Assembly (NCBI GenBank): GCA_902776435.1 | Contig: CACYQB010000002.1 | Location: 93,401-157,400, forward strand | Reading direction: 5' to 3' | From: an uncultured Bacteroidales bacterium | GTDB taxonomy: Bacteria; Bacteroidota; Bacteroidia; Bacteroidales; Muribaculaceae | DNA: 64,000 nucleotides | In this document: positions 36,493 through 52,491 of the stretch, piece by piece | How positions within the stretch are numbered: position 1 is the stretch's first letter | Layout: each line of letters starts with the position of its first letter | The notes under the pieces: generated by a model | The model's database searches: none | The model's input: only the letters and a program-made list of their open reading frames with translations | What the model was told of the DNA's origin: nothing | Translations under genes and position numbers: made by a program

Positions 36493-36520
36493 ACCCATCC
36501 AATCAAAATCAAAATGATGC

Positions 36521-36693: not shown

Positions 36694-38601
36694 GTGAAAA
36701 TACTTTCTATTAACGACCTCAATAACTTGAGGAAGCGTGCGCAACAAGCTTTGGCGCTGCGCGAGGAAAGTTCTGACCAGTCGTCAGAGCAGTGTTGTGG
36801 TCTTGCAACGGGAGCCGAGCATCTGCAAGTGCTGTGCTGCGGCGGTACTGGTTGCAAGGCTTCAAACAGCCACAAAATCGTAGATAACCTGAATGCCTGT
36901 CTTGATGAGAATGGCATTGCCGACAAGGTGGATGTCATCACCACGGGTTGCTTCGGTTTCTGCGAGAAGGGTCCCATCGTGAAGATTATCCCCGACAACA
37001 CCTTCTATACTCAGGTGAAGCCCGAGGATGCTGCCGAAATCGTTAAGGAACACATCATTGGTGGCCGTCGCGTGGAGCGTCTGCTCTATGTTGACCCCAA
37101 GACCAACAAGACGGTGAGCGACAGCAAGCACATGGACTTCTATCGCAAGCAGATGCGTATCGCCTTGCGTAACTGCGGTCTCATCGACCCCGAGAACATT
37201 GAGGAATACATTGCCCGTGACGGTTATCAGGGTATCGCCAACGCATTGCTCAACCAGACCCCCGAAGAGGTGATTGAGATCATCAAGGCCTCAGGTCTGC
37301 GTGGCCGTGGTGGCGCTGGCTTCCCCACCGGTATGAAGTGGGGCTTTGCTCGTGGCTATGACGCTGATGAGAAGTACGTGGTTTGTAACGCTGACGAGGG
37401 TGACCCCGGTGCGTTCATGGATCGCTCCATCATGGAGGGTGACCCCAACTCGGTGATTGAGGCAATGACCGTCTGCGGTTACTGCATCAACTCCCACAAG
37501 GGTCTGATTTACATCCGCGCTGAGTATCCCCTGGCTGTACACCGCCTGAAGATTGCTATCCAGCAGGCTCGTGAATATGGCTTGCTCGGCAAGAGAATTC
37601 TGGGCACCGACTTCGACTTTGATATTGAGATCCGTTACGGTGCTGGTGCATTCGTTTGCGGTGAGGAGACTGCTCTTATCCACTCGATGGAAGGTAAGCG
37701 TGGTGAGCCCACCTTGAAGCCTCCCTTCCCCGCCGAGGCTGGTTATAACATGAAGCCCACCAACGTGAACAACGTTGAGACCCTCGCCAATGTGCCCATC
37801 ATCCTGACCAAGGGCGCTGACTGGTTTGCCTCGATCGGCACCGAGAAGAGCAAGGGTACCAAGGTATTCGCTCTGGCTGGTAAAATTAATAATGTGGGCC
37901 TTATCGAGGTTCCCATGGGTACCACCCTGCGTGAGATTATCTACGACATCGGTGGTGGCGTGAAGAATGGTAAGGAATTCAAGGCTGTGCAGACTGGTGG
38001 CCCCTCTGGTGGCTGCTTGACTCAGAAGCACTTGGATACCCCCATCGACTATGAGCATCTTGCCGCTTCTGGCTCAATGATGGGCTCTGGTGGTATGATC
38101 GTTATGGATGAGGACGACTGTATGGTAAGCGTTGCCAAGTTCTATCTCGAGTTCACTTGTGATGAGAGCTGCGGTAAGTGCACTCCCTGCCGCATCGGCA
38201 ACAAGCGTATGCTGGAGATTCTTACCCGCATCACCGAGGGCAAGGGCACTATGGAAGACCTTGATCGCCTCAAAGAGCTGGGTGAGATCATTAAGGACAC
38301 CGCCCTGTGCGGTCTGGGCCAGACCTCTCCCAATCCTGTGTTATCGACTATCAACAACTTCTGGGACGAGTATGTGGAGCACGTGAAGCAGCACACCTGC
38401 CGCGCTAAGCAGTGCAAGGCCCTCGTTACCTATAGCATTGAAGCCTCCAAGTGTAAGGGTTGCGGTGCTTGCGCCCGCAAGTGCCCCGCCAACGCCATCA
38501 TGGGCGACATTCGCAAACCTCACATTATTAACCCCTTCGAGTGCATCCGCTGCGGTATGTGTAAGTCTAATTGCCGCTTCGACGCCATCTCGGTTTATTA
38601 A
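36694..38601 (+). CDS. hydB: [FeFe] hydrogenase NADH/flavin subunit HydB (NuoF-like)
   Basis: This 635-residue subunit carries FMN and the NAD(H) site of the trimeric electron-bifurcating [FeFe] hydrogenase, which couples NADH and reduced ferredoxin to H2. Domains: N-terminal thioredoxin-like [2Fe-2S] (about 40-140; LCCGGTGCKAS and GCFGFCEKGP), NuoF core (about 170-540; GRGGAGFPTGMKWGFA, NADEGDPGAFMDRS, YGAGAFVCGEETAL), a [4Fe-4S] site in ESCGKCTPCR, and a C-terminal 2[4Fe-4S] ferredoxin (about 585-635; CKGCGACARKC, CIRCGMCKSNC). Translation starts at GTG 36694. hydA starts 14 bases after the stop, and hydC follows: one operon. A weak -7 variant TAATTTTA is at 36624. Confidence 0.95.
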   Translation: MKILSINDLNNLRKRAQQALALREESSDQSSEQCCGLATGAEHLQVLCCGGTGCKASNSHKIVDNLNACLDENGIADKVDVITTGCFGFCEKGPIVKIIPDNTFYTQVKPEDAAEIVKEHIIGGRRVERLLYVDPKTNKTVSDSKHMDFYRKQMRIALRNCGLIDPENIEEYIARDGYQGIANALLNQTPEEVIEIIKASGLRGRGGAGFPTGMKWGFARGYDADEKYVVCNADEGDPGAFMDRSIMEGDPNSVIEAMTVCGYCINSHKGLIYIRAEYPLAVHRLKIAIQQAREYGLLGKRILGTDFDFDIEIRYGAGAFVCGEETALIHSMEGKRGEPTLKPPFPAEAGYNMKPTNVNNVETLANVPIILTKGADWFASIGTEKSKGTKVFALAGKINNVGLIEVPMGTTLREIIYDIGGGVKNGKEFKAVQTGGPSGGCLTQKHLDTPIDYEHLAASGSMMGSGGMIVMDEDDCMVSVAKFYLEFTCDESCGKCTPCRIGNKRMLEILTRITEGKGTMEDLDRLKELGEIIKDTALCGLGQTSPNPVLSTINNFWDEYVEHVKQHTCRAKQCKALVTYSIEASKCKGCGACARKCPANAIMGDIRKPHIINPFECIRCGMCKSNCRFDAISVY

Positions 38602-38615
38602 AATTCGATAGCATC

Positions 38616-40385
38616 ATGGAAGAAAAGAATATGATCACTTTGACGATTGATAAACACGAGGTAACTGTTCCCGCAGGGACCATGCTGCTTGATGCCGCCA
38701 AGACCGTTGGCATCAGCATTCCCACCCTGTGCCACATTGATCTGGAGGGTACTTGTGTACAGAACATGCCCGCCTCGTGCCGCATTTGTGTTGTTGAGAT
38801 CGAAGGCCGTCGCAACCTGGCTCCCGCCTGCGCAACCCGCGTGACTCCGGGTATGGTGGTTCACACCAACAGCGCCCGCGTTATCCGCGCCCGCAAGACC
38901 GTTGCCGAGCTCATGCTCAGCGACCACCCCAACGATTGCTTGACTTGCCCCAAGTGCAGCGACTGTGAATTGCAGCGCCTGGTAATGCGCTTCAATATCC
39001 GCCAGATGCCCTATAACGGTGGCGAACAGAGCGAGCGCAAGCAGGAGTTGACTCCCGCTATCTCCCGCAACATGGAGAAGTGCGTTTACTGCCGCCGTTG
39101 CGAGAGCGTCTGCAACAACGTTCAGTCAGTAGGTGTATTGAGCGCTATCCGTCGTGGTTTCAACACCACCATCGCTCCCACCTTCGACAAGATGTTCACC
39201 GACACCAACTGTACCTACTGCGGCCAGTGCGTTGCCGTTTGTCCTACTGGTGCCCTCACCGAGCATGACTATACCAACCAGCTCATGGACGACCTCACCA
39301 ACCCCGACAAGGTGGTTGTGGCTCAGCCTGCTCCCGCCGTTCGTTTCGCTCTTGGCGAGGAATTCGGCATGCCCGCTGGAACTATCGTTACCGGCAAGAT
39401 GGCTACGGCTCTGCGTGACCTTGGCTTTGATTACGCATTCGATACCGACTTCGCTGCCGACCTTACCATCATGGAGGAAGGCACAGAGATCCTGCAACGC
39501 CTCAACAAGTTCCTTGCTGGCGATAAGGATGTGAAGTTGCCGATCATGACTTCGTGCTGCCCCGCTTGGGTTAACTTCTATGAGCACGAGTTCCCCGATC
39601 TGCTCGACTATCCTTCAACCGCCAAGTCGCCTGCTCAGATGTTTGGTGCTATTGCCAAGACCTACTGGGCCGAGAAGATGGGTATCCCCCGCGAGAAACT
39701 CGTGGTTGTTTCCATCATGCCCTGCTTGGCTAAGAAGTATGAGGCTGGTCGTGAGGAGTTCAAGGTGGATGGCAATCCCGACGTGGATTACAGCATCTCA
39801 ACCCGCGAGTTGGGCCGCTTGATCAAGCGTGCTAACATTGATTTCGCCAACCTGCCCGAGAGTGACTTTGACTCGCCCCTCGGTGAATCGACCGGTGCTG
39901 GTGCCATCTTCGGCATCACTGGTGGTGTGATGGAGGCTGCTTTGCGTACCGTTTATGAGGTACACACTGGCAAGACCCTGCCTCACCTCGAGTTCAACGA
40001 TGTGCGTGGTTTCGAAGGCATCAAGGAGGCTACCATCGACCTCAACGGCTTCGAGCTGAAGGTCTGCGTGGCTCACACCCTGAGCAACGCCCGCAAGGTG
40101 ATGAACGCTCTGCGTGCTGGCAAGCTCAACTACCACGTGGTTGAGGTGATGGCTTGTCCCGGTGGTTGCATCGGTGGCGCTGGTCAGCCCTATCACCATG
40201 GCAACATTGAGATTCTTAAGGCACGTGCTGCTGCCGTTTACCGCGAGGACGAGGGCAAGAAGCTGCGCAAGAGCCACGAGAATCCCGATATCCAGAAGCT
40301 TTACAAGGAATTCCTGGGTGAACCCTGTGGCGAGAAGTCTCACCACCTGCTTCACACGCATTACTTTGATAAGTCTATTCACTAA
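38616..40385 (+). CDS. hydA: [FeFe] hydrogenase catalytic subunit HydA
   Basis: The 589-residue catalytic subunit evolves or consumes H2 at its H-cluster. In order: plant-type [2Fe-2S] (CHIDLEGTCVQ, ASCRICVVEIEG), His-ligated cluster HPNDCLTCPKCSDC, two [4Fe-4S] (CVYCRRCESVC, CTYCGQCVAVC), then the H-cluster motifs TSCCPAW (near 311), MPCLAKKYE (near 367) and EVMACPGGCIGGAGQP (near 511). This is the M3-like architecture of bifurcating enzymes. ATG 38616 is chosen because the ferredoxin fold begins there; an upstream in-frame extension would overlap hydB. Confidence 0.97.
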   Translation: MEEKNMITLTIDKHEVTVPAGTMLLDAAKTVGISIPTLCHIDLEGTCVQNMPASCRICVVEIEGRRNLAPACATRVTPGMVVHTNSARVIRARKTVAELMLSDHPNDCLTCPKCSDCELQRLVMRFNIRQMPYNGGEQSERKQELTPAISRNMEKCVYCRRCESVCNNVQSVGVLSAIRRGFNTTIAPTFDKMFTDTNCTYCGQCVAVCPTGALTEHDYTNQLMDDLTNPDKVVVAQPAPAVRFALGEEFGMPAGTIVTGKMATALRDLGFDYAFDTDFAADLTIMEEGTEILQRLNKFLAGDKDVKLPIMTSCCPAWVNFYEHEFPDLLDYPSTAKSPAQMFGAIAKTYWAEKMGIPREKLVVVSIMPCLAKKYEAGREEFKVDGNPDVDYSISTRELGRLIKRANIDFANLPESDFDSPLGESTGAGAIFGITGGVMEAALRTVYEVHTGKTLPHLEFNDVRGFEGIKEATIDLNGFELKVCVAHTLSNARKVMNALRAGKLNYHVVEVMACPGGCIGGAGQPYHHGNIEILKARAAAVYREDEGKKLRKSHENPDIQKLYKEFLGEPCGEKSHHLLHTHYFDKSIH

Positions 40386-40411
40386 TTTCGAATCAAAACA
40401 ACAATAACGAT

Positions 40412-40906
40412 ATGAAGAAGAAAGAAGAAATCAAACTGGCGTGTACCGTTGTTCAACAGGTTGAAGAAATCTGCGACAAGCACGGCAATAAGCCCGGTGA
40501 ACTGATTAACGTCCTGCATGAGTGCCAGGCTTTGCACGGCTATCTCCCCGAGGAGATGCAGCGCATCATCGCACGCAAGCTGGGCGTGCCCGCTTCTAAG
40601 GTTTATGGCGTGGTGACGTTCTACTCGTTCTTCACCATGACTCCTAAAGGCAAGCACCCGATTTCGGTCTGCCTGGGTACCGCTTGTTATGTGCGCGGTT
40701 CCGAGCGTCTGCTTGAGGAAATCAAGCGCATCCTGGGCATCGAGGTAGGTGAGACTACCCCCGACGGCAAGTTCTCACTCGACTGCCTGCGTTGCGTGGG
40801 TGCCTGCGGTCTTGCTCCCGTTGTCATGATTGGTGAGCACGTCTATGGCCGTCTCGACGTCAAGGACGTTCGCCAGATCCTCGAGAACGCTGCTGCTCAA
40901 GACTAA
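40412..40906 (+). CDS. hydC: [FeFe] hydrogenase subunit HydC (NuoE-like)
   Basis: The 164 residues match the NuoE-type [2Fe-2S] thioredoxin-like subunit that passes electrons to the flavin subunit. Four Cys ligands are seen in SVCLGTACYVRGS and LRCVGACGLAPVV. It is 26 bases after hydA and ends the hydB-hydA-hydC operon at a strong terminator. With the two larger subunits it makes the HydABC complex typical of fermenting anaerobes. Confidence 0.94.
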   Translation: MKKKEEIKLACTVVQQVEEICDKHGNKPGELINVLHECQALHGYLPEEMQRIIARKLGVPASKVYGVVTFYSFFTMTPKGKHPISVCLGTACYVRGSERLLEEIKRILGIEVGETTPDGKFSLDCLRCVGACGLAPVVMIGEHVYGRLDVKDVRQILENAAAQD

Positions 40907-40931
40907 GAACACTAAACATCACTAATTACCC

Positions 40932-40978
40932 GAAAGCGGGAGGACTCAATCTGGAAGAGCCCTCCCGCTTTCTATTAT
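40932..40978 (+). terminator. Terminator after hydC
   Basis: GAAAGCGGGAGG and CCTCCCGCTTTC form a 12 bp perfect stem over a 17-base loop, followed by TATTATT. Confidence 0.9.
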
Positions 40979-40993
40979 TGCCCGAGGTATTTC

Positions 40994-41468
40994 AATGCGA
41001 ATTGCGCTAATGAGCTGAATTTCACGAAATAGGATTAAACATTCGCAATCATTGGATAAATTCCATTAGAGTCCGGGGAAAACACATAGTTACTCTGTAA
41101 TAGTTTGAAAAATAAGATAAATGTAGGTCACTTCTGAATCATGGGCTTGGCTTTTGCCTCGAAGAGGCAGGTCGGGTCGAAGACTCGACTTTTATGGAAA
41201 ACACCATGCCAGCTCATCGAACATGAGCGCAGCTTGGTGATAGCCATATCAAGTGGAAAGTGCGTCGGAGACGAACTTCTGCATCCGTCAAAAGCCTATA
41301 AATCAATAAGTTCCTCTTCGATGCACCTGTAGTGTTTTGCTCTATGACCAAGCTGCGAACCTCTCCGAGGTTCTTGCATGGTCTTACTCATTGAAATCGG
41401 TTCTTCGAACCGCTAACATCTACGATGTTTCACCAGACAAAAATAGATAAATTCGTGTAATTCGCATT
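40994..41468. repeat. 475 bp segment bounded by 10 bp inverted repeats
   Basis: AATGCGAATT (40994-41003) and AATTCGCATT (41459-41468) are perfect inverted repeats, and both lie inside longer copies of the TTAGCGCAATTCG-type dispersed repeat in opposite orientation. They enclose the hairpin cluster at 41155-41429. This would fit a small non-autonomous element; no transposase is visible, and no target duplication is clear. This segment makes up most of the 738 bp gap between hydC and the BspA-like gene. Confidence 0.4.
41155..41429. ncRNA. Candidate structured RNA or structured DNA element
   Basis: At least six small hairpins follow one another: TGCCTC-GAA-GAGGCA (41155), GTCGGGTC-GAA-GACTCGAC (41171), GCTCAT-CGAAC-ATGAGC (41212), GAACCTC-TCC-GAGGTTC (41357), CGGTTC-TTC-GAACCG (41398) and AACATC-TAC-GATGTT (41415). 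CGCAGCTTGGT (41228-41238) pairs with ACCAAGCTGCG (41347-41357), extended inward by ATAG/CTAT past one mismatch, enclosing an inner stem TGCATC/GATGCA (41280, 41320) and an imperfect hairpin at 41258-41278. Most hairpins have three-base loops. The 63-codon frame at 41141-41332 is not convincing as a gene. Strand is unknown; no promoter is obvious. Confidence 0.4.
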
Positions 41469-41550
41469 AGCCCCGCAGGGATTGGGCCACAATTCATTTC
41501 AATAGTTAATATTTTTTCATGTTTTGGTGTGATTTTCTTAGTACTTTTAT

Positions 41551-41615
41551 TATATTTGCACATTCGAGTAAATTTTTGGTTATCGCTCTCTCGAGCGAGC
41601 CCGTGAGGGCGATAA
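41551..41615 (+). promoter_or_regulatory. Promoter box and leader hairpin of the BspA-like gene
   Basis: TATATTTG at 41551-41558 is a -7 box. In the ~80-base leader TTATCGC (41580-41586) and GCGATAA (41609-41615) pair and enclose a second small stem CTCGAGCGAG-like. The start codon is at 41645. Confidence 0.55.
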
Positions 41616-41644
41616 CGTTTATCCCATTAATCACTGTTCATTCT

Positions 41645-44600
41645 ATGAAAACATCTACATTAACATCTAGGTTGCTTGCCATTGTGGCAGCCTTCTCGTT
41701 TGTGTTCAGTGCTGCTGCCTACGACTTCACTGTCGATGGTGTGTACTACAACATCACGGGCGACAACACAGTCGAGGTCACTAGTAAGACTACCTCTTCG
41801 GGCGGTTACACTGGCGAAGTAACAGTACCCGCCACGGTCACCAATGGCGGCGTGAACTATCAGGTCACTGCTGTGGGCGACAAAGCTTTCTATGTATGCA
41901 GCAACGTGACTGCAGTTCACTTGCCGGCTACCATCACCTCAATTGGTGAGAATGCCTTCTACCGCTGCTACAGTTTGGCCGACGTGAACATCCCAGACGG
42001 GGTCGTCACGATTGCCTATAGAGCCTTCGATGAATGTAAGGGATTGACAACAGTAACCATCCCGTCATCGGTGGTCAGCATCGGCAATATGGCCTTCTAT
42101 CAGTGCATTGCGATGACTCAGGTCAATTTCAATGAGGGGTTGCAGACCATCGGTACCAGCGCATTCTCTTATTGTAAAGCATTGACCCAGGTGGAGTTTC
42201 CTGTCTCGGTCACCTCGATTGGCCAAAATGTATTTGAAAATTGCACCGGCTTGACCGACGTGACATTTAACGGAGCCACCAGCATCGGCCTCTATGCATT
42301 TGCTTATGACAGTGCCATCACCTCGGTGACCTGCCTGAGCGAGACCCCGCCGTCGATGTATAACAGTGCCTGCTTCAATAGCGCGGTCTATGAAAACGCT
42401 GAGCTGCACGTGGCCTCCCGTGCATTGCATGACGTGTATGCCAGCGCTGCCAATTGGATGAATTTCACACATATCCTTAGCCCGTGTGACTTTGAAGACG
42501 AGGGCTGCTATTTCCTGAGACTTGGAGACGACAGAGCTATCATCACCTACAAGGATGAGAACTACAACAGTTATAGCGGTAATGTGATCATTCCTTTAAC
42601 TGTGTACGACGGCGGTACCGAACGCATAGTGGTCAAAGTGGACAAAAACGCATTCAAGAATTGTGACGCAATGACTAGTGTGGATATTACTATGTATATA
42701 GAAAGGATTGAGGCCACCGCTTTTGCCGGTTGCTCTGCCTTGACTGCCGTGTATGTGTACCCCTTTCCTCCCACCATGGCCGGCAGCGATGTATTCGACA
42801 ACGACACTTACAGCAATGCTACGCTCTATGTGCCTTTCTATGCGATAGACGACTTTAAATCTGCTAATTATTGGCGTCTTTTCAACACGATAAAGAGTAT
42901 GGATGAACCTGATTTTGTCGTTGATGGTATTTATTATGCGAAATGGAATGTTACAACTGTAGCTGTCATGCATGGACCGGAGAAGGGCTGTTATAGCGGC
43001 CATGTGACTATCCCGCCAGTGGTGCTATGGGAGGGCAATTTCTATAACGTGAAATGTATAGAATGGGGAGCCTTCTATGGTTGTCCCGACGTGACCGATG
43101 TGACAATACCAACGAGCGTCCAATCGTTTGGCTCATATTGCTTTGCGGGAACAGGATTAACATCCACTATCCATCCTGATTATGCCATGGGAATTGCTGA
43201 AGGTGCATATAAAGACTGCACCCAGTTGAAGACTATAACAATTAATGCTAACATGGTTAAAGTGGAAAAGTATGCGTTTGCGGGTTGCACGGCAGTGGAG
43301 ACAGTCATCTGCAAGGCTGTCACTCCTCCCCTGATTAGATTCGATTACAATTGCTTTTCCGAAGAAGCCTACAACAACGCCACGCTCTATGTGCCCGGTG
43401 CCAGTTACAATGACTATAAAGTTGCTTCAGGGTGGAGGCGTTTCGCCAATATCGTAGGCGTCCTCCACGACTTTGAGGTGGGCGGCGTCTATTATGCCAT
43501 TACCGATGCTAACACCGTTGCTGTGACGGCCAGGGACAACCGTTACAATAGCTATAGCGGCAGTATAGAGATTCCGTCAATGGTGACCTATAATGGCACC
43601 GATTATGTTGTTGCCTCCATAGCCCAGTATGCCTTCTACAACTGTACCGGCTTGACCAGTGTGACGATTCCCATGAGTGTGACCGAGATTGGCAATTACG
43701 CTTTCCTTGGCTGCACCAATGTTTCTCGGGTCATCTGCAACAGTTACACGCCTCCCGTTATGGCCAACTACTATGCATTCGATCCCACCTGCTATCAGAA
43801 CGCAACCCTGATTGTGCCCGATGGAGCGGAAGGACTGTATCAGTCCACCGACTGGTGGAACCAGTTCACTCAAGTAAAGCTCATTTTGCGCGGTGATGTG
43901 AATGGAGACGGCACTGTCAGCATCGCCGATGTGACGGCTTTGATTGACTACCTGTTAAGTGGTGATGAATCGAACGCTCTTTTAATCAATGCTGACGTCA
44001 ATAAAGACGGCACTGTCAGCATCGCTGATGTGACAGCGCTGATTGACTACCTGCTCAGTGGCGCCTGGCCTTTCGATGGTACGGTTACAATTCAAGGCAT
44101 AACTTTTAATATGGTTGCCGTTGAGGGCGGTACCTTCACTATGGGTGCAACACCAGAACAAGGTAGCTATCCTAATGATAATGAGAAGCCTGCTCATCAG
44201 GTAACCTTATCTGATTATTATATCGGTGAAACTGAGGTTACACAAGCGCTATGGTTAGCAGTGATGGGTAGCAACCCCAGTCAGCATCAAGGGGATTTGA
44301 ATTATCCTGTAGAACGAGTATCATGGAATGAATGTCAAATATTTATATCCAGATTGAATGAGATGACAGGATTGAATTTCCGAATGCCTACCGAGGCCGA
44401 ATGGGAATATGCTGCTCGAGGCGGTAAATACAGTCATTCCCATATGTATGCTGGAAGTGATCTTGTTGATGAAGTGGCATGGAATTACGATAACTCAGGT
44501 AATTTGACTCATTTGGTTGCAACGAAGAGGGCAAACGAGTTAGGACTTTATGATATGTCCGGCAATGTAGGTGAATGGTGCCAAGATTGGTTTGGCCCTT

Positions 44601-44767
44601 ATAGCGAAGTTAGTCAAACCAATCCTACGGGTCCAGAAACGGGCAGCAACCGTGCTTATCGTGGTGGATTCTTTCAGGTCCAGGCTCCATTATGTCGAGT
44701 AGCAACGAGGTTCCAGTTTTACCCGTCAGCAACACCGCCTTATGTAGGTCTGCGTCTTGCCCTATAG
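41645..44767 (+). CDS. BspA-like leucine-rich-repeat protein with dockerin and FGE-like domains
   Basis: About 1040 residues. After a signal peptide (KTSTLTSRLLAIVAAFSFVFS) come many LRR_5 (BspA-type) repeats to about residue 745, for example VTIPSSVVSIGNMAFYQC and VTIPMSVTEIGNYAFLGC. Then a two-repeat dockerin at about 751-805 (DVNGDGTVSIADVTALIDYL, DVNKDGTVSIADVTALIDYL) and an FGE-sulfatase-like domain at about 812-1040 (GGTFTMGAT, ETEVTQALW, MPTEAEWEYAARGG). The end reads YRGGFFQVQAPLCRVATR, so one of the two FGE Cys positions is empty. BspA-type repeats bind host or matrix proteins. Codons of the last domain are visibly more AT-rich than those of the repeats. The ATG at 41645 is chosen from the signal peptide; an upstream open frame has none. 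Confidence 0.88.
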   Translation: MKTSTLTSRLLAIVAAFSFVFSAAAYDFTVDGVYYNITGDNTVEVTSKTTSSGGYTGEVTVPATVTNGGVNYQVTAVGDKAFYVCSNVTAVHLPATITSIGENAFYRCYSLADVNIPDGVVTIAYRAFDECKGLTTVTIPSSVVSIGNMAFYQCIAMTQVNFNEGLQTIGTSAFSYCKALTQVEFPVSVTSIGQNVFENCTGLTDVTFNGATSIGLYAFAYDSAITSVTCLSETPPSMYNSACFNSAVYENAELHVASRALHDVYASAANWMNFTHILSPCDFEDEGCYFLRLGDDRAIITYKDENYNSYSGNVIIPLTVYDGGTERIVVKVDKNAFKNCDAMTSVDITMYIERIEATAFAGCSALTAVYVYPFPPTMAGSDVFDNDTYSNATLYVPFYAIDDFKSANYWRLFNTIKSMDEPDFVVDGIYYAKWNVTTVAVMHGPEKGCYSGHVTIPPVVLWEGNFYNVKCIEWGAFYGCPDVTDVTIPTSVQSFGSYCFAGTGLTSTIHPDYAMGIAEGAYKDCTQLKTITINANMVKVEKYAFAGCTAVETVICKAVTPPLIRFDYNCFSEEAYNNATLYVPGASYNDYKVASGWRRFANIVGVLHDFEVGGVYYAITDANTVAVTARDNRYNSYSGSIEIPSMVTYNGTDYVVASIAQYAFYNCTGLTSVTIPMSVTEIGNYAFLGCTNVSRVICNSYTPPVMANYYAFDPTCYQNATLIVPDGAEGLYQSTDWWNQFTQVKLILRGDVNGDGTVSIADVTALIDYLLSGDESNALLINADVNKDGTVSIADVTALIDYLLSGAWPFDGTVTIQGITFNMVAVEGGTFTMGATPEQGSYPNDNEKPAHQVTLSDYYIGETEVTQALWLAVMGSNPSQHQGDLNYPVERVSWNECQIFISRLNEMTGLNFRMPTEAEWEYAARGGKYSHSHMYAGSDLVDEVAWNYDNSGNLTHLVATKRANELGLYDMSGNVGEWCQDWFGPYSEVSQTNPTGPETGSNRAYRGGFFQVQAPLCRVATRFQFYPSATPPYVGLRLAL

Positions 44768-44783
44768 TTCTATCTTATAACAA

Positions 44784-44823
44784 AAAAAAGGGTCATCAGA
44801 GTGGTCTTTGATGATCCTTTTTT
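44784..44823 (+). terminator. Terminator after the BspA-like gene
   Basis: AAAAAAGGGTCATCA and TGATGATCCTTTTTT pair with one G-T over a 10-base loop. It could stop transcription from both sides. Confidence 0.85.
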
Positions 44824-45009
44824 ACGTGGGTTCCAAAGATGTAGAGACGCAAAATTTTGCGTCTCAAGGGCAGTCAATTTTGTGTTTCGCGACTGGGGCC
44901 GCCATCACGGGCGGGGTAGCAGGTCTATCAGCCTTCACAGTCTGCCCAGGGTATGCCTTCCCGAATTATACTTTATTTTTATTGAATTCACCTTAATTGA
45001 TTCAATTAA
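44824..45009. other. Remainder of the gap before the second hydrogenase gene
   Basis: Apart from the palindrome at 44844-44865 this part of the 339 bp gap holds GC-rich sequence to about 44960 without a credible gene, then an AT-rich stretch leading into the promoter at 45010. Confidence 0.5.
44844..44865. repeat. 22 bp perfect palindrome GAGACGCAAAA/TTTTGCGTCTC
   Basis: The arms GAGACGCAAAA and TTTTGCGTCTC meet without a loop. As I recall, near-identical GTAGAGACGCAAAATTTTGC palindromes are scattered in many Bacteroidetes genomes; this copy is preceded by GTA. Confidence 0.8.
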
Positions 45010-45040
45010 TTGCAGGATTGGAAGAAAATTCGTAATTTTG
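45010..45040 (+). promoter_or_regulatory. Promoter of the second hydrogenase
   Basis: TTG (45010-45012) and TAATTTTG (45033-45040) are 20 bases apart. The ATG lies at 45107. Confidence 0.65.
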
Positions 45041-45106
45041 TGAGTTAATTTGGGTAGATATCCATCATTCTCCCAACCCTGTCAATGATTAATTTGCTAA
45101 TTGTCA

Positions 45107-46915
45107 ATGGAATCTCAACAAGATAAATCACTAAACAATCCGAAAGGAGAAGTGCAGTCGGACAATGCCGCTGTGGCTTACGGTTTGATTGCTAACGCCC
45201 ACGTCCAGGTCCTGTGTTGCTGCGGCTCGGCCTGCTACAACTCGGGCAGTTTGAAAATCATTGACAATTTCATTCGAGTCATTGCCGAGTATGGTTTGGG
45301 CAGCCGTGTTGACGTGGTGGCTACGGGGTGCTTCGGCTTTTGTGCCAAGGGTCCCATCGTCAGAATCATGCCTGACAACACGACTTACGTACAGGTGCAC
45401 CCCGAGGATGTTGAGGATATCGTTAAGACACACATCATCGATGGCCGTCTTCTCGAGGAACGCTTGCAGTATGTGGACTTCACGGCCCATCAGCTGATGG
45501 ATGACTCCAAGCACTGGAGCTCTTATCCCAAGCAGCTGTCGATGGACGCCATGTTGCATGACTACATCTACGAGATTGGCGGCAAGAAGTTCTTGTCGGT
45601 GATGTCCTACAAGATTGATGCTGACAAGTGCAAGGGTTGTGGTGCCTGCAAGCGCGGCTGCTCCAGCCAGGCCATCGTGGGCGATTTGCGCCACCCCCAT
45701 GTGGTCAATCCTTATAAATGCACCTGCTGCGGCCATTGCACAACCAAATGCAAGTTCGACGCCATCCACGGACCCGTAGGCGCCCTGAGCGAGCGCAACT
45801 ATGTTGAGGATCTACTGGTCGATGTGGCTGACCCAGACAAGATTGTTGTGGCCCAGACAGCTCCGGCTGTACGTTACGCGCTGGGCGAGGAATTCGGTAT
45901 GCCGCCGGGTACCATTGTGACGGGCAAGATGATTTCTGCCTTGCGCAAGGTGGGCGTGGACTACGTGTTTGATACTGACTTCGGTGCCGACATCACGATT
46001 ATGGAGGAAGCAGCCGAAATTGTTGACCGCCTTCGCAAATTCATCGCTGGCGACAAGACGGTACGTATCCCCATCACCACCTCGTGCTGCCCTGCATGGG
46101 TTAATTTCTTTGAGAACGATTATCCCGATTTGAGGGAATATCCCTCGACCTGCAAGTCACCTGCCCAGATGCTGGGTGCTGTGCTCAAGAGCTATTGGGC
46201 CGAGCGAATGGGCATCCCTCGTGACAAACTTGTTGTGGTGTCTGTGATGCCATGCTTGTCCAAGAAATATGAATGTGCCCGCGACGAGTTCATCACCAAT
46301 GGCAACCCCGATGTGGACTACTCGGTCACCACGATTGAGTTGGCCGAACTGATCAAGCGCATGAACATCGACTTTGACGAGTTGCAGGACGGCGAGTTTG
46401 ATATGCCGCTGGGCGACTCCAGTGGCGCTGGTGCTATCTTCGGCACGACTGGCGGTGTCATGGAGGCCGCTTTACGCACGGTCTATGAGGAATTTACAGG
46501 AAAGGAGTTGGCGTATGTCGAGTTTGAGCAGGTGCGTGGCCTGGATGGTATCCATGAGGCTGTCATCGACCTCGATGGTTTTGAGTTGAAGGTCTGTGTG
46601 GTAAACACGTTAGCCAATGCCCGCATCGTCATGGACAAACTGCGTGCAGGTGAAATAGAATATCATGTCATTGAGGTGATGGCATGTCCTGGTGGTTGCA
46701 TCGGTGGCACAGGTCAGCCCTACCACCATGGTGACATTGAGGTCATCAAAGCGCGCCAGCGCGCCATATACAGCGAGGACGTCGGCAAGAAATTGCGCAA
46801 GAGCCACGAGAATCCTGTCATCCAGCGCCTCTACAAGGAGTTCTTGGGCAAACCGTTGCACGGCAAGGCCCACGAAATACTGCATACCAAGTACCGCGAT
46901 AAATCTATCCTTTAG
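45107..46915 (+). CDS. Second [FeFe] hydrogenase, chimeric HydB-HydA type
   Basis: 602 residues. The N-terminus is the HydB-type thioredoxin-like [2Fe-2S] domain (about 25-130; LCCCGSACYNS, GCFGFCAKGPIVRIMPDN), followed after a ~40-residue linker by the HydB-type 2[4Fe-4S] ferredoxin (about 174-222; CKGCGACKRGC, CTCCGHCTTKC), and then the HydA catalytic domain with TSCCPAW (near 324), MPCLSKKYE (near 380) and EVMACPGGCIGGTGQP (near 524). The NuoF flavin domain is absent, and so are the plant-type [2Fe-2S] and His-ligated clusters of HydA. All H-cluster Cys are kept, so it should be active, probably with ferredoxin or a thiol-type donor, or as a sensor. The ATG at 45107 is used rather than TTG 45101. 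Its 3' end overlaps hydF by 4 bp, tail to tail. Confidence 0.93.
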   Translation: MESQQDKSLNNPKGEVQSDNAAVAYGLIANAHVQVLCCCGSACYNSGSLKIIDNFIRVIAEYGLGSRVDVVATGCFGFCAKGPIVRIMPDNTTYVQVHPEDVEDIVKTHIIDGRLLEERLQYVDFTAHQLMDDSKHWSSYPKQLSMDAMLHDYIYEIGGKKFLSVMSYKIDADKCKGCGACKRGCSSQAIVGDLRHPHVVNPYKCTCCGHCTTKCKFDAIHGPVGALSERNYVEDLLVDVADPDKIVVAQTAPAVRYALGEEFGMPPGTIVTGKMISALRKVGVDYVFDTDFGADITIMEEAAEIVDRLRKFIAGDKTVRIPITTSCCPAWVNFFENDYPDLREYPSTCKSPAQMLGAVLKSYWAERMGIPRDKLVVVSVMPCLSKKYECARDEFITNGNPDVDYSVTTIELAELIKRMNIDFDELQDGEFDMPLGDSSGAGAIFGTTGGVMEAALRTVYEEFTGKELAYVEFEQVRGLDGIHEAVIDLDGFELKVCVVNTLANARIVMDKLRAGEIEYHVIEVMACPGGCIGGTGQPYHHGDIEVIKARQRAIYSEDVGKKLRKSHENPVIQRLYKEFLGKPLHGKAHEILHTKYRDKSIL

Positions 46916-48108
46916 GGTAGCGATACTTTTTCTAGAATACCTTTGATGTGAGCGATGGTGATGCCATAGTTGGTCATCGGTGTGCCCTGTTGTCTGCATT
47001 GCATCACACGCGAGAGCATGAACCGGTTGTTGAACATACAACCTCCGCAATGGATAACGAGGTCATAGGATGTCACATCTTTAGGGAAATCCTTGCCAGC
47101 CACGATATCAATGGTCAAACCTTCGCCAACACGCTGACGCAACAGACGTGGAATCTTCACCCTGCCGATATCTTCAGACAGTGGTGCATGGGTACAGGCT
47201 TCGGCGATGAGCACGCATGACTGTTCGGTGAGACGGTCAATGGTCCGCGCGCTCTTGACAAAGAAACGGATATCACCCTTGTGAGCTGCCATCAAAACTG
47301 AAAATGAGGTGAGCAGGCTCCCAGCAGGCTTTTTCTGAGCCACGACATCAAACACCTGGGAATCAGTGATGATGAGTCTTGGCGGTTCTCGCAGGGCCGC
47401 GAGCGTTCGGTCAATATCTCCAGTCGTGCAACACACGGCTACACAACCCTTGTCCATCAGGTCACGCAAGGTCTGGACTTGAGGAAGAATGAGTCGGCCC
47501 TTGGGCGCTTGGGGGTCTTGTGGCATGACTAGCAACACTGTGTCGCCTGCCTGGGCAAGATTACCGGTGAGCGATTGGCTGTCGGTTTCAGGCAACAGGC
47601 CAACCAGTGTTTTTCGCAATACATCAAGTCCTGTCCCGTTCAAAGCGCTGACGGGAATAACATCACATCCCAGTCGCTTGGCAATGTCGGTGAGTAGGGT
47701 AGAGGGGACTTCTTGCATCAGGTCCACCTTATTTAATACGGCAACATAGGGGACGTTAGCCTGCTTGAGTTGTCCAGCCCATGCCGTTTCTTCATCGAGT
47801 GCAGTTCCGTCAGTCACAAGGATGGCGATGTCGGCCTGCTTGATGACCTCACGGGTGCGCTCGGTGCGCAGGTCACCCACCTTGCCTGTGTCATCAAATC
47901 CAGCAGTGTCAATCAGTACACACGGGCCCAGCGGCAGTATCTCCATTGCCTTGCTCACAGGATCAGTAGTCGTCCCTGCCACGTCGCTCACGATGGCAAT
48001 CTGCTGCCCAGTAAGCGCATTGATAAGCGATGACTTACCCACATTGCGCCGCCCAAACAACGCAATATGCACCCTCTCACTCCGCGGAGTATCAATCAAT
48101 CCGTTCAC
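46912..48108 (-). CDS. hydF: [FeFe] hydrogenase maturation GTPase HydF
   Basis: HydF is the scaffold that carries the 2Fe precursor and delivers it to HydA. The 398 residues show the N-terminal GTPase (GRRNVGKSSLINALTGQ at about 19, DTAGFDD, LNKVDLM) and a C-terminal iron-sulfur part with ACTHAP and IHCGGC, matching the CxH...HCxxC cluster ligands of HydF. Length is normal. It lies between hydG, 95 bases upstream on the same strand, and the convergent second hydrogenase. Confidence 0.96.
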   Translation of the reverse strand: MNGLIDTPRSERVHIALFGRRNVGKSSLINALTGQQIAIVSDVAGTTTDPVSKAMEILPLGPCVLIDTAGFDDTGKVGDLRTERTREVIKQADIAILVTDGTALDEETAWAGQLKQANVPYVAVLNKVDLMQEVPSTLLTDIAKRLGCDVIPVSALNGTGLDVLRKTLVGLLPETDSQSLTGNLAQAGDTVLLVMPQDPQAPKGRLILPQVQTLRDLMDKGCVAVCCTTGDIDRTLAALREPPRLIITDSQVFDVVAQKKPAGSLLTSFSVLMAAHKGDIRFFVKSARTIDRLTEQSCVLIAEACTHAPLSEDIGRVKIPRLLRQRVGEGLTIDIVAGKDFPKDVTSYDLVIHCGGCMFNNRFMLSRVMQCRQQGTPMTNYGITIAHIKGILEKVSLP

Positions 48109-48124
48109 AACAAATTAATGGATG

Positions 48125-48197
48125 AAAACAAGAAATACAAGAAACACAATTATGTCATTAAAATGCTTTCATTTGTATTTCTTGTATTTCTTGTTTT
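48125..48197. terminator. 20 bp perfect inverted repeat between hydG and hydF
   Basis: AAAACAAGAAATACAAGAAA (48125-48144) and its exact complement (48178-48197) are separated by 33 bases. On the - strand it lies just after the hydG stop and in the hydF leader, so it may weaken read-through or stabilise hydG mRNA. The arms contain an internal ACAAGAAAT repeat. Confidence 0.7.
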
Positions 48198-48203
48198 TAA
48201 AAG

Positions 48204-49619
48204 TTAGAAGTAGAAGTCGCGTTGGCCGCCGGCGATGTCGTTGATGTGTTGGGCAGCGATTTCCCGAACGCGCTGATTGGATATTTTGGCCAACTCTTGC
48301 TGGATGAGGGCGTTGCCCTTTGCAATGGTGTCCTCGCTGGCAAAGTCCATGAGGTACTCCTTGAGCGTCATCAGTGCATTAGGAGTGCAGATGTCGCCAA
48401 TCTTGCCGGCCTTGCACAGTTCCATGAAGCGGTCGCCAGTGCGGCCCGAACGGTAGCATGCCGTGCAGAAACTGGGAAGATAACCGATGGACAGCAACCA
48501 GTTGATGACTTCATCAAGGGTGCGCGTGTCACTCACGTCGAACTGAGCCGTCTCGTCATGACGCTCGACAGTCGTGTAGCCACCAACGCTGGTACGGCTA
48601 CCGCCGCTGATCTGCGATACACCCAGGTCAAGCACCTTAGTGCGCACGCTCTGGCTCTCGCGAGTGGAGATAATCATGCCGGTATAGGGCACGGCCAGAC
48701 GGATGACGGCGATAATGCGGCAGAAAATGTCGTCGGGCAGCACATCGGGGAACTCATCGAGGGTGATATCCTCGGCGGGACAGATGCGTGGAACACTGAT
48801 GGTGTGAGGGCCAACGCCGAATTTAGCCTCCAGGTGCTCGGCATGCATGAGCAGACCCACGAAGTCATAGCGGTAGGTTGTCAAGCCATACAATACGCCG
48901 ATGCCCACATCGTCACATCCGCCCATCTGGGCACGGTCCATCGCTTCGGTGTGGTAGCAGTAGTCGCTTTTGGGGCCTGTTGGATGCAACGCCTCGTAGT
49001 TCTTGCGGTTATAAGTCTCCTGGAACAGGATGTAGGTGCCGATTCCCGCTGCCTTCAATTTCTCGTAGGCTTCGACTGTGGTAGCGGCAATATTCACGTT
49101 CAAGCGACGGATTTCGCCATTGCCCACCTTAGTATTATAAATAGTGTGGATCGATTCCAGGATATACTCCAGCGGATTCATCACGGGGTGTTCGCCTGCC
49201 TCAAGGGCAATGCGCTTGTGGCCCATTTTGACCAACGCTTCAACCTCGGCTCGAATCTCGTCCTGCGACAGTTTCTTGCGCGGAATGGTCTTGTTCTTGG
49301 CATGATAGGGGCAATAGACACACCCGTTAATGCAGTAATTGGACAGATAGAGTGGAGCAAACATCACGATGCGGTTGCCGTAGAAGCGTTTTTTCACATC
49401 CTTGGCCAACTGCTCATAACGCTCAATGAGGTCGGGCTGGTCACAGTCGAGCAACACGGCAGCCTCACGATGGGTCAAGCCCTTGCACAGGGCGGCTTTG
49501 TTGATAATCTCTTCAATCAGAGCACGATTGCTCTTGTTCTTCTCAGCGTAGGCTAAGGTATCCAGTATTTCACTGTCGTCGATAAATTCATCGGCGTGGT
49601 TAGACTTGACGTTATACAT
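48204..49619 (-). CDS. hydG: [FeFe] hydrogenase maturation radical-SAM enzyme HydG
   Basis: HydG cleaves tyrosine to make the CO and CN ligands of the H-cluster. The radical-SAM motif CINGCVYC (CX3CX2C) lies near residues 95-102, the C-terminal cluster motif in FCTACYRSGRTGDRFMELC carries the second CX2C cluster ligands, and the rest (EAGEHPVMNPLEYI, FQETYNRKNYEALHP, SQISGGSRTSVGGY) is typical. I use ATG 49619 (471 residues); the TTG at 49655 falls inside the -7 promoter box, so translation cannot start there. Confidence 0.96.
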   Translation of the reverse strand: MYNVKSNHADEFIDDSEILDTLAYAEKNKSNRALIEEIINKAALCKGLTHREAAVLLDCDQPDLIERYEQLAKDVKKRFYGNRIVMFAPLYLSNYCINGCVYCPYHAKNKTIPRKKLSQDEIRAEVEALVKMGHKRIALEAGEHPVMNPLEYILESIHTIYNTKVGNGEIRRLNVNIAATTVEAYEKLKAAGIGTYILFQETYNRKNYEALHPTGPKSDYCYHTEAMDRAQMGGCDDVGIGVLYGLTTYRYDFVGLLMHAEHLEAKFGVGPHTISVPRICPAEDITLDEFPDVLPDDIFCRIIAVIRLAVPYTGMIISTRESQSVRTKVLDLGVSQISGGSRTSVGGYTTVERHDETAQFDVSDTRTLDEVINWLLSIGYLPSFCTACYRSGRTGDRFMELCKAGKIGDICTPNALMTLKEYLMDFASEDTIAKGNALIQQELAKISNQRVREIAAQHINDIAGGQRDFYF

Positions 49620-49652
49620 GATATTACAGTAGTTATTAGTTGTTTCAACCTG

Positions 49653-49660
49653 CAAATATA
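49653..49660 (-). promoter_or_regulatory. hydG(-hydF) promoter -7 box
   Basis: TATATTTG on the - strand leaves a leader of about 27 bases before ATG 49619. Confidence 0.65.
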
Positions 49661-49744
49661 ATCAAAAGTTGTCACAACTCATCAATGGCTTGCTAAAAAA
49701 AGATAATAAAATTAAAACTTGCTTGCAGTGCTATCAATTTGCAC

Positions 49745-49752
49745 TATCTTTG
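49745..49752 (+). promoter_or_regulatory. -7 box for the LptD-like gene
   Basis: TATCTTTG lies 18 bases before the TTG start at 49771 and 48 bases before the next in-frame ATG at 49801. Confidence 0.65.
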
Positions 49753-49770
49753 CACGTTTAAAGGTAAAAT

Positions 49771-52491
49771 TTGACGACGAGAGGGCTCCATATCATCGGT
49801 ATGTTGTTGGCGGCAGTGATGCTGTTGCCATTGCTTTCACATGGTCAGGTCAGGGGAGATGTCCTTGACCTAAATCAGGCCGTGGACTCTATTGTCAAGG
49901 CTGAAACCGATTCCTCGCCAGAGCAAGTCATGCCTCGTGATACCAGCCGCTTTATCCGCGAGCGGGTGGATCTGGATCATGTAGTGGAGTTCACCGCCAA
50001 GGACAGTATCATCCTCATGGGCCGTAACCATGCGGTGATGTATGGCGGCAGCAAAATCATCTATGGCGACATTGATGTGAGTGCTTCCCAGATTAGCATG
50101 GACATGGACAGCAGCCAGGTGCATGCCATCGGCGTGCCCGACAGCGTGGGTGAATTGATAGGCAATCCTGTCTTCAAGGACAATAGCGGCGAATATGAGT
50201 CACGGGTGATGAAGTACAACTTCAAGTCCAAACGCGGCTATATCACCGACATTGTCACCGAACAGGGCGAAGGCTATCTCACGGGCGGCGTCACCAAGAA
50301 GACCGAGGATGACTATTATTACATCAAGGATGGCCGCTATACCACCTGTGACAACCATGAGCATCCTCACTTCTATTTCCAGCTGACCAAAGCTAAGGTC
50401 AAACCCAAGAAAAATGTGGTAACGGGACCCGCCTTTATGGTTCTTGAGGACTTGCCGCTACCCATTGCGGTACCCTTCGGCTACTTCCCGTTCAGCGAAA
50501 AGTATCAGAGCGGTATCCTGGTGCCCACCTTTGGTGAGGATTACAACCGTGGCTTCTATTTGAGGAATGGCGGTTACTATTTGGCCCTCGGTCAGTATGC
50601 CGACCTGGCGTTGACGGGCGAAATCTATACGCGCGGCTCATGGGGTGTGTCAGCTCAGTCTTCCTATGCCAAGCGATACAAGTTCAGCGGCTCATTCAGT
50701 GTCAATTACCTCACAACGATAACTGGCCTGAAAGGAGACCCCGACTACAACAAGATGCACAATTTCCAGGTTGTATGGAGCCACAGCCAGAACCAGAAGG
50801 CCAACCCCTACTTGACCTTCTCGGCCAGCGTGAACTTCGCTACCACGGGCTATACCCGCAATAGCTTGAACACCTACTATACAAATGCCTTTACCGAGAA
50901 TACCAAGAGCAGTTCCATCAACTTGACCTACAAGATACCTAACAGCAAGTGGTCAATCTCGACGACTGCCAATGTATCACAGCGCACATCCGACTCAACC
51001 ATCACCGTCTCATTCCCCAACTTTACCATCAACATGAGCCAGACGGCGCCATTCAAGCGCAAGCGTGTCGTGGGCGAAGAACGCTGGTATGAGAAAATCA
51101 AGGTGAGCTACAATGGTAAATTCCAGAATTCGTTGACAGCCAAGCAGAATGTCTTTTTCCGCAAGAGCCTGGTCAAGGACTGGCGCAATGGCATGAGTCA
51201 CACGGTGCCGATTCAGGCAACATTCAACGTGCTGAAGTATTTCAACATCACCCCGTCGATTACGCTCAATGACCGCATGTACACGAGCAAAATCCGACAA
51301 CAGTGGGATCCCAATGCCAGCGCGGTGGTGAGGGACACGTCTTATAGTTTCTATAATGTGTTTGACTTTAACGCTGCTATTTCGCTCAGCACCAAGGTTT
51401 ATGGTTTCTTCAAGCCTTTCAAGTTCCTAGGCAAACTGAGCGAGAAACTGCAGATGGTACGTCACGTGATGACGCCGACAATCTCGTTCTCGGCGTCTCC
51501 GGATTTTGGCTCGCCGTTCTGGGGCTACTATGGCAACTATGAATATGTGGATGCTACCGGTAAACGCCGCACTCAGCGTTACAGCTACTTCCAGCATGGG
51601 GTTTATGGTAGTGCGCCCAATACCAAGTCTGGTACTATCATGTTCAACATTGCCAACAATCTGGAGGCCAAGATTAAGAGCGACAATGACAGCACTGGTT
51701 TCAAGAAAATCTCATTGATTGAGAATTTCACCCTCAGCCAGTCTTGCAACCTGGCTGCCGACTCGATGAAGTGGAGCAACCTCAATACCAGCATCATGCT
51801 GCGATTGACCAAGGGCTTCAACTTGAACTTGAGTGCCACCTGGGATGTCTATAAATACGCCCTTAACGAGGCTGGTAATCCCGTTAGGATCAACAAACTG
51901 CGTCTGTTCAACGGCGGTGGCTGGGGACGACTTTCTAGCACAGGAACCTCATTCTCCTATACATTCAACAACGATACCTTCAAGCGCAAGGGCAATAAGG
52001 ACAAGGACAAAAAGAATGAGGATCCCAAGCTACGAGGACAATTAAACCGGAATAATGATGAGGAAGGGGAGGAGCAGGAAGGAACAGGCCCGACGACCGA
52101 TCTGGAACTGATTGACGGCTATGCAAAGTGGGATTGCCCATGGAGCTTAACGGTCAACTATTCTTTGTCCTACGGCTACGGCTCATTCAATTACGACAAG
52201 TTGGAGTATAATGGCCGTTGGACTCAGAACTTGAGCCTTAACGCCAACATCCGCCCCACTAAGAACTGGTCGCTTACGGCTTCGGCCAGCTACAATTTCG
52301 ATACCCACAAGATCGCTTACATGAACTGCAGCATCTCGCGCCAGATGCACTGCTTCGAGATGAGCGCCAGCTTTGTGCCGGTCGGCCCCTACAAGAGTTA
52401 CAATTTCCACATCGCTGTCAAGTCGTCCATCCTCCAGGATGTGAAATATGACAAGCATTCCAGCATTAACAATGGTGTCACTTGGTATTAA
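49771..52491 (+). CDS. LPS-assembly protein LptD-like outer-membrane protein
   Basis: LptD inserts lipopolysaccharide into the outer leaflet. The 906 residues begin with a signal peptide ending LLSHGQ, then an OstA-type beta-jellyroll (about 60-190; VVEFTAKDSIILMGRNHAVM, GYLTGGVTKK), the conserved TTCDNHEHPHFYFQLTKAKV with its single Cys, LPLPIAVPFGYFP, and a long barrel of alternating strands to an aromatic C-terminal residue. The family is the Bacteroidetes LptD type. Translation may start at TTG 49771 (basic n-region) or ATG 49801. The following gene overlaps its end. LptE is not in view. Confidence 0.88.
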   Translation: MTTRGLHIIGMLLAAVMLLPLLSHGQVRGDVLDLNQAVDSIVKAETDSSPEQVMPRDTSRFIRERVDLDHVVEFTAKDSIILMGRNHAVMYGGSKIIYGDIDVSASQISMDMDSSQVHAIGVPDSVGELIGNPVFKDNSGEYESRVMKYNFKSKRGYITDIVTEQGEGYLTGGVTKKTEDDYYYIKDGRYTTCDNHEHPHFYFQLTKAKVKPKKNVVTGPAFMVLEDLPLPIAVPFGYFPFSEKYQSGILVPTFGEDYNRGFYLRNGGYYLALGQYADLALTGEIYTRGSWGVSAQSSYAKRYKFSGSFSVNYLTTITGLKGDPDYNKMHNFQVVWSHSQNQKANPYLTFSASVNFATTGYTRNSLNTYYTNAFTENTKSSSINLTYKIPNSKWSISTTANVSQRTSDSTITVSFPNFTINMSQTAPFKRKRVVGEERWYEKIKVSYNGKFQNSLTAKQNVFFRKSLVKDWRNGMSHTVPIQATFNVLKYFNITPSITLNDRMYTSKIRQQWDPNASAVVRDTSYSFYNVFDFNAAISLSTKVYGFFKPFKFLGKLSEKLQMVRHVMTPTISFSASPDFGSPFWGYYGNYEYVDATGKRRTQRYSYFQHGVYGSAPNTKSGTIMFNIANNLEAKIKSDNDSTGFKKISLIENFTLSQSCNLAADSMKWSNLNTSIMLRLTKGFNLNLSATWDVYKYALNEAGNPVRINKLRLFNGGGWGRLSSTGTSFSYTFNNDTFKRKGNKDKDKKNEDPKLRGQLNRNNDEEGEEQEGTGPTTDLELIDGYAKWDCPWSLTVNYSLSYGYGSFNYDKLEYNGRWTQNLSLNANIRPTKNWSLTASASYNFDTHKIAYMNCSISRQMHCFEMSASFVPVGPYKSYNFHIAVKSSILQDVKYDKHSSINNGVTWY

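Follow-up and report, generated by a model that had tools for sequence, protein, structure and literature searches.

The closest described relatives of the protein considered here include the three-part HydABC enzymes of Thermotoga maritima and its relatives (group A3; A6 in NCBIfam), and the enzyme of Desulfovibrio desulfuricans and CbA5H of Clostridium beijerinckii, both of which we take to be M2-type hydrogenases and in which a 2[4Fe-4S] domain lies directly ahead of the H-domain. Natural subunit fusions are known as well: parts of the cited reports portray the hydrogenosomal hydrogenase of Nyctotherus ovalis as a single-chain fusion of HydABC-like subunits that retains a NuoF-like NADH module (PMC2216082, PMC7311640), and HydAB of Syntrophus aciditrophicus as a non-bifurcating, NADH-dependent fusion of gamma and beta subunits (PMC7311640). 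Here we describe a further single-chain [FeFe] hydrogenase, named FUS, which is the product of 45107..46915 (plus strand) in a 64,000-nucleotide stretch of DNA (the window; contig CACYQB010000002.1, positions 93,401 to 157,400) from an uncultured Bacteroidales bacterium of the family Muribaculaceae.

Every module of FUS is a HydB or HydA module. In contrast to HydABC, however, FUS is one chain, lacks the flavin mononucleotide (FMN)/NAD core, the CRAKQC segment of HydB and the N-terminal clusters of HydA, and scores below the A6 cut-off. It shares with the Desulfovibrio enzyme and CbA5H the placement of a 2[4Fe-4S] domain before the H-domain, and PDB sequence matches run unbroken over both domains (CbA5H, residues 172-597, 2e-127; Desulfovibrio, 169-600, 4e-113). 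It differs from these two in an added N-terminal thioredoxin-like (TRX) [2Fe-2S] domain, in the lack of SLBB, in a ferredoxin domain that appears to descend from the HydB bridge and in an H-domain apparently derived from a bifurcating-type HydA; one SLBB-less example among CbA5H homologues is mentioned in the part of PMC13397568 cited here. Unlike the Nyctotherus enzyme, FUS has dropped the NADH module, and unlike Syntrophus HydAB it has no NADH site. A literature search did not find the layout TRX-ferredoxin-H-domain described, but the classifications of Meyer 2007 and Calusinska 2010 were outside its scope, and an earlier mention is possible. With fair though limited confidence, we read FUS as a genus-specific, non-bifurcating, ferredoxin-linked, single-chain group A [FeFe] hydrogenase that arose by fusion of HydB and HydA.

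Modules, joints and catalytic residues

The reading frame opens with ATG at 45107, closes with the stop codon at 46913-46915 and encodes 602 amino acids. By alignment, FUS is composed of the HydB TRX domain, the HydB C-terminal ferredoxin and the HydA H-domain, without the FMN/NAD core or the HydA N-terminal clusters. The original prediction, made from the letters alone, had assigned the first ~145 residues and the next ferredoxin to the two ends of HydB and everything from GALSERNY onward to HydA, and BLASTP bears this out: residues 3-144 are 49% identical to HydB (143 columns, E 2e-36), residues 160-220 are 52% identical to HydB 572-632 (61 columns, E 1e-21) and residues 173-601 are 63% identical to HydA (442 columns, E 0). 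At the DNA level the identity is 72% with hydA and likewise with the N-terminal part of hydB, falling to 66% for the ferredoxin part of hydB. The Pfam models Fe_hyd_lg_C, Fe_hyd_SSU and Fer4 match above their cut-offs; 2Fe-2S_thioredx falls slightly below (24.2 vs 24.8) and passes in the orthologue at locus L016 (28.3). The FMN and NAD(H) sites are gone, as had been proposed: FUS has no Pfam match to Complex1_51K, SLBB or NADH_4Fe-4S, all of which match HydB (SLBB with a score under the cut-off).

Conservation was judged in an alignment of 55 sequences, i.e. FUS of the window and those of 54 of 57 further loci, leaving out L023 and L106, which are cut by contig ends, and L073, which is the same DNA as L181. 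All modules lie on the plus strand. The HydB-type TRX domain (residues 32-121; 45200..45469; PF01257 just under cut-off) contains Cys37 as well as Cys38, 43, 75 and 79, the latter four invariant in all 55 sequences. The ferredoxin domain, of the HydB C-terminal "bridge" type (residues 168-220; 45608..45766), keeps Cys175/178/181/185 and Cys205/208/211/215 throughout. It is followed by the H-domain (residues 245-534; 45839..46708; PF02906, 310.9 bits) and by a tail resembling the hydrogenase small subunit (residues 545-599; 46739..46903; PF02256, 86.3 bits).

The two HydB-derived segments meet at residues 122-167 (45470..45607, plus strand), where CRAKQC of HydB is absent. The claim that hydB residues ~150-575 are missing holds for the core, but the second HydB stretch probably resumes near DEYVEHV (residue 558), ahead of residue 572: HDYIYEI of FUS aligns with DEYVEHV, CRAKQC (569-574) is missing, and no cysteine occurs between positions 80 and 174 in any of the 55 sequences. 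We infer that CRAKQC is a zinc-hinge candidate in HydB, holding two of the hinge ligands. At the fusion point proper, KFDAIHG-PVGAL (residues 216-227; 45752..45787, plus strand), the HydB end runs into HydA sequence beginning at Pro210. The join was correctly placed at the second [4Fe-4S] motif of HydA and can be narrowed down further, as the HydA part starts directly after the fourth cysteine of that motif. Beyond this cysteine HydB ends with C-RFDAI-SVY, HydA continues with C-PTGALTE and FUS reads C-KFDAI-HG-PVGALSE, and hence retains the post-cysteine segments of both.

The predicted retention of all H-cluster cysteines was also confirmed, Cys328, 383, 527 and 531 being invariant in 55/55 sequences, as are the proton relay residues Glu301, Glu304, Arg308, Cys327 and Ser347, and likewise Met381 and Lys386. 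Residue roles were assigned by motif and spacing, and that of the relay cysteine by alignment to CbA5H; on the same grounds of motif and spacing we take Glu301, Glu304, Arg308 and Ser347 to correspond to the relay of CpI. FUS exceeds the cut-off of the group A model TIGR02512 (464.6 vs 405.95) and has the A1/M2 feature of a 2[4Fe-4S] domain and an H-domain in one chain. It falls short of the A6 model NF040763 (582.3 vs 765 bits, over residues 171-599 only), the ferredoxin hydrogenase model NF040762 (400.6 vs 900) and the group B model TIGR04105 (162.6 vs 450 bits). Since FUS passes the group A model and fails the other three hydrogenase models that it matches, annotation probably files it with HydA relatives. 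The invariant cluster ligands together with a group A relay suggest that FUS is most likely an active enzyme. A further H-domain cysteine, Cys349 (in PSTCKSP; codon 46151-46153), is invariant in 55/55 FUS and replaced by alanine in 11/11 HydA of the genus.

Occurrence, descent and selection

The genome of the window has two H-domain genes, hydA and FUS. Within the genus, 57 of the 101 genomes searched carry the same architecture, and samples of the family, order and phylum gave no full-length example outside it. Genus counts were made by hand among the matches listed, with E values down to ~3e-37, so that short HydA pieces may have been missed. The 57 comprise 32 sequences at 82-100% identity, 23 full-length ones at 63-66% and two cut by contig ends, and FUS forms two clades within the genus; HydA occurs without FUS in 19 of the 101 genomes, and neither was listed in 25. 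Among 247 genomes of the family, 23 match the N-terminal model (E <= 1e-20), all in one of 30 genera; full-length matches make up 19 of these, all from the window's own genus, and the other four are HydB only. Among the matches listed for 393 genomes of the order, scored at three candidates per genome, only the window's genome gives a match over residues 1-601, the others beginning at 144 or later, like HydA. In 345 genomes of the phylum (E <= 1e-25) a full-length match was likewise confined to the window's genome, and HydB matches occurred in two genomes.

From named genome contigs 79 loci were kept (34 weaker candidates lay beyond these), of which 55 (L053-L107) encode the fusion, with L106 truncated by the end of its contig. 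These are labelled Muribaculaceae, Prevotellaceae, Porphyromonadaceae or Bacteroidales, and gut sites of goat, deer, sheep or yak appear in several of the titles. The other 24 are Bacillota or Spirochaete records, and the 15 that were read all encode ordinary HydB, truncated where the contig stops in two cases. Viral contigs gave no FUS match, and plasmid records no place covering 80% of the FUS query. So far, the architecture is confined to one genus of gut bacteria, many members of which come from ruminants.

In the H-domain tree of 56 rows, from which HydA of L114 was omitted because the motif was not found, FUS forms one clade (100/99), and FUS with 22 HydA of the genus forms a clade (100/100) that excludes another 13 HydA from the order and five from Bacillota or Spirochaetes. 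The H-domain does not branch far from hydA, which would have refuted the predicted local fusion. FUS is nested with four HydA of other species (93/91, an unstarred node of moderate support). In the 55-row tree of the TRX and ferredoxin parts (TRX+Fd) FUS groups with HydB of the genus (95/97), in a subset of HydB that does not include that of the window (97/82; a further node at 90/87, moderate). With TRX alone the two do not come together, yet their grouping is not rejected (p 0.316). The TRX part of FUS is highly divergent, with a stem of 0.89 changes per column and another 1.04 between the clades.

These trees point to hydBA of this lineage as the most likely source of both halves of FUS, at a date earlier than the divergence of its two clades. 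The original prediction of a local duplication, deletion and fusion is upheld as regards a HydB/HydA fusion from the lineage's own hydBA, but not as regards the neighbouring pair as its source: descent from the window genome's own copy is not supported, because both halves group, at moderate support, nearer to hydBA of other species of the genus and the fusion predates the clade split. A recent local fusion was rejected on the 72% DNA identity, the orthologues in 57/101 genomes and the trees. Under the proposed course of events, hydBA would have been duplicated in tandem downstream of hydC, one deletion would have taken out the FMN core of hydB and another would have joined the hydB end to the hydA H-domain, all before the split of the two clades and followed by patchy loss or transfer.

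Selection was assessed in ten genomes carrying both enzymes, giving 45 pairs, of which 37 were defined for the FUS H-domain and eight had undefined synonymous divergence (dS). The median ratio of nonsynonymous divergence (dN) to dS, omega, is 0.081 for the FUS H-domain, 0.083 for the HydA H-domain and 0.083 for HydB, rough values given that dS is high and partly saturated. Relaxed evolution of FUS is not supported, as its omega equals that of HydA and HydB; its median dN is ~1.7 times that of HydA but dS is raised alongside (1.72 vs 1.00), which makes relaxed selection unlikely. Synonymous divergence is uneven at some loci: among the window, L027 and L028, that of hydA and hydB is 2.7 to 3.9 times below that of FUS (window-L028: hydA 0.37, hydB 0.43, FUS 1.39), and the near pair L014-L017 shows the reverse (0.42, 0.44 and 0.30). 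A bias in expression or an exchange of hydBAC could account for this pattern.

Genomic neighbourhood

Upstream of FUS, on the same strand, lie hydB (36694..38601) and hydA (38616..40385; NCBIfam group A6, over cut-off), relatives of the sources of its N-terminal half and H-domain respectively, and hydC (40412..40906; PF01257, 174 bits). The hydB-hydA pair is nearer than the 7 kb originally stated, as hydA ends 4.7 kb upstream of FUS. A hairpin after hydC (40932..40972, plus strand; 12 bp outer stem) is a likely terminator parting hydBAC from the downstream genes. The 61-base stretch containing it folds at -27.0 kcal/mol; a consensus terminator scan of the window did not list it, its loop being longer than the scan allows. 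The interval from hydC to FUS in L032 includes a terminator-like site of 13 pairs.

FUS is preceded by a promoter-like site (45010..45040, plus strand) with TTG at 45010-45012 and TAATTTTG at 45033-45040; the -33/-7 arrangement and TAnnTTTG are what we take to be the Bacteroidales-type promoter consensus. TAnnTTTG is found 90-240 bases ahead of the Gly26 codon in 49 of 55 FUS sequences, which are related and so do not represent independent cases, compared with a mean of 3.3 and a maximum of 9 in mononucleotide shuffles of the same stretches. Its own promoter-like site and the terminator-like hairpins indicate that FUS is probably a separate transcription unit.

Downstream, the maturase gene hydF (46912..48108, minus strand; TIGR03918, 539 bits) converges on FUS with the predicted 4 bp tail-to-tail overlap (46912-46915) and is followed by the maturase gene hydG (48204..49655, minus strand; TIGR03955, 848 bits). 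Among 20 loci read (L013-L032), hydC is upstream of FUS in 15, hydF is convergent in 12 and both hold in 10; in three of the five loci lacking hydC (L020, L022, L023) the contig stops a short way upstream of FUS. Among 12 loci of the genus without FUS, hydC runs directly to hydF in two (L160, L166), hydF lies 1 to 6.3 kb past hydC in L159, L164 and L167, and it is outside the stretch examined in the other seven. In L168, from another family, hydC adjoins a convergent hydF. Taken together, the positions of hydC and hydF in loci with and without FUS suggest that the ancestral place of FUS is most likely between these two genes.

In the window the interval between hydC and FUS holds a gene for a 1082-amino acid protein (41519-44767, plus strand) with BspA-type leucine-rich repeats, a dockerin type I and an FGE-sulfatase domain; of the 15 relatives in which the stretch read covers both genes, 12 have a hydC-FUS gap under 0.5 kb. 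Two genomes have unusual arrangements. In G047 (L176:9018-12698, minus strand) a single open frame of 1226 amino acids spans hydB and hydA, with FUS nearby; this is either another HydB-HydA fusion of natural origin or an error of assembly. In G019 (L177; 85% complete) the 16 kb ahead of FUS contain no separate hydBAC and HydA is absent among the matches listed, so FUS may stand alone there.

Electron supply and competing readings

We infer the electron partner of FUS, the direction of its reaction and any complex formation from its modules and genomic context. Reduced ferredoxin from pyruvate:ferredoxin oxidoreductase (PFOR) would donate electrons at the [2Fe-2S] or [4Fe-4S] clusters of FUS, and these would reach the H-cluster by way of the two [4Fe-4S] clusters and reduce protons to H2 there. 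As FUS lacks a flavin, neither bifurcation nor confurcation is expected, and it could act as a one-donor relief valve under conditions that do not suit HydABC, whether through a shortage of NADH or through the prevailing H2 pressure. The window's genome encodes PFOR, as do 85 of the 101 genus genomes searched (E <= 1e-100). RnfC was found in 0/101 (E <= 1e-30; the control, Bacteroides ihuae, matched), and RnfB had no match over the cut-off in the window's genome. A ferredoxin-only outlet for H2 fits the presence of PFOR and the absence of RnfC. In T. maritima HydABC the bridge clusters B3/B4 of HydB are the proposed ferredoxin site, according to the portion of PMC9499530 cited; the HydB [2Fe-2S] cluster, B1, and the HydC one are 12 A apart in HydABC. 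We see an even chance that FUS represents a natural demotion, in which the flavin site was excised and the ferredoxin arm of HydB, with its [2Fe-2S] and bridge clusters, was wired to the H-cluster. The resulting new architecture would have been retained alongside the complex it came from, allowing the cell to release H2 either by confurcation or with ferredoxin alone.

Several observations weigh against a ferredoxin-linked enzyme of this origin. PFOR is present in 18 of the 25 genomes with neither HydA nor FUS among the matches listed; with RnfC in none of the 101, a hydrogenase is not an obligatory outlet for ferredoxin and others must exist, which weakens the argument that a hydrogenase is needed for want of Rnf. 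FUS presence changes at least seven times on the HydBA tree of 22 genus rows, chosen by hand and including many incomplete genomes, and this implies repeated losses or transfers of a gene that is dispensable or mobile. In the approximately unbiased (AU) test, monophyly of the genus HydA without FUS was not rejected (p 0.248), and both the TRX and the TRX+Fd tree drew a warning from the tree program that long branches meet in them. The electron role of the TRX domain may have been lost through divergence. The link from the last ferredoxin cysteine to the H-domain is 37 residues in two FUS vs 30 in three HydA, and these seven additional residues could weaken electron transfer. Finally, the AlphaFold models are poor (mean predicted local distance difference test 70.5 and 66.8, with residues ~122-230 below 50); both leave the ferredoxin part unresolved, and a fold search with FUS gave [FeFe] hydrogenases but no TRX among the 50 matches listed.

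The strongest alternative, which we nevertheless regard as unlikely, is that FUS is an alternative catalytic outlet of HydABC, docking through its TRX or bridge domain on HydC or HydB as a fourth subunit or a substitute for HydA. Both N-terminal modules of FUS are HydB-derived, the gene lies in the immediate neighbourhood of hydBAC, and HydA is listed in 52 of 57 FUS genomes; in four of the remaining five, FUS lies close to the end of its contig or right at it. Yet FUS of G019 has no HydA listed and no separate hydBAC ahead of it, the promoter-like site and hairpins set FUS apart, and HydA does without FUS in 19/101 genomes; moreover, the would-be docking TRX part has diverged far more (0.89, 1.04) than that of HydB itself, and CRAKQC has been lost.

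Much less probable, if compatible with a ferredoxin-linked role, is an oxygen-protected hydrogenase of the CbA5H kind, in which a flexible TSC loop would let Cys327 cap the H-cluster. CbA5H is the best solved-structure match in both sequence and fold, and of the positions tied to protection in the cited parts of PMC7854748 and PMC13397568, P386 corresponds to Pro346, H245 to His198 and L364 to the small Thr324 of FUS, each invariant in 55/55. However, A561 and C236 are replaced by Val521 and Ala189, the proline is common to HydA of the genus (11/11), and FUS has no SLBB match.

The suggestion in the original prediction of a redox sensor, here extended to an H2 or redox sensor tuning hydrogenase expression, is if anything slightly more improbable still. 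An additional hydrogenase near a bifurcating one is the usual setting of groups C and D (PMC3561251, PMC8163306, in the parts cited), but the sensory groups, as described in the cited part of PMC8163306, lack the relay cysteine (CpI C299) and other proton-transfer residues, and FUS retains Cys327, the whole relay and Met381 in 55/55 sequences. In addition, FUS exceeds the group A model TIGR02512, has no PAS match and no residues beyond the small-subunit tail for a C-terminal FeS domain, and no kinase is found among the annotated genes of 34606-52491. A decaying gene or assembly artefact, which the divergent N-terminus and patchy presence might suggest, can practically be dismissed in view of 54 further distinct near-full-length sequences, an omega of ~0.08 and invariant cofactor ligands.

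As a natural protein with these HydB modules attached straight to an H-cluster, FUS offers a ready tool for asking whether the bridge domain alone accepts electrons from ferredoxin. The route of electrons to ferredoxin in HydABC is debated, and in the bridge-closed T. maritima structure B3/B4 lie >30 A from the next clusters, according to the cited portion of PMC9499530. FUS also adds to the hydrogenases of gut Bacteroidales, many of them from ruminants, in whose gut H2 feeds methanogens, as stated in the part of PMC9562222 cited. It suggests that these bacteria may possess a simpler, probably ferredoxin-driven route to H2 beside the normal three-part enzyme.

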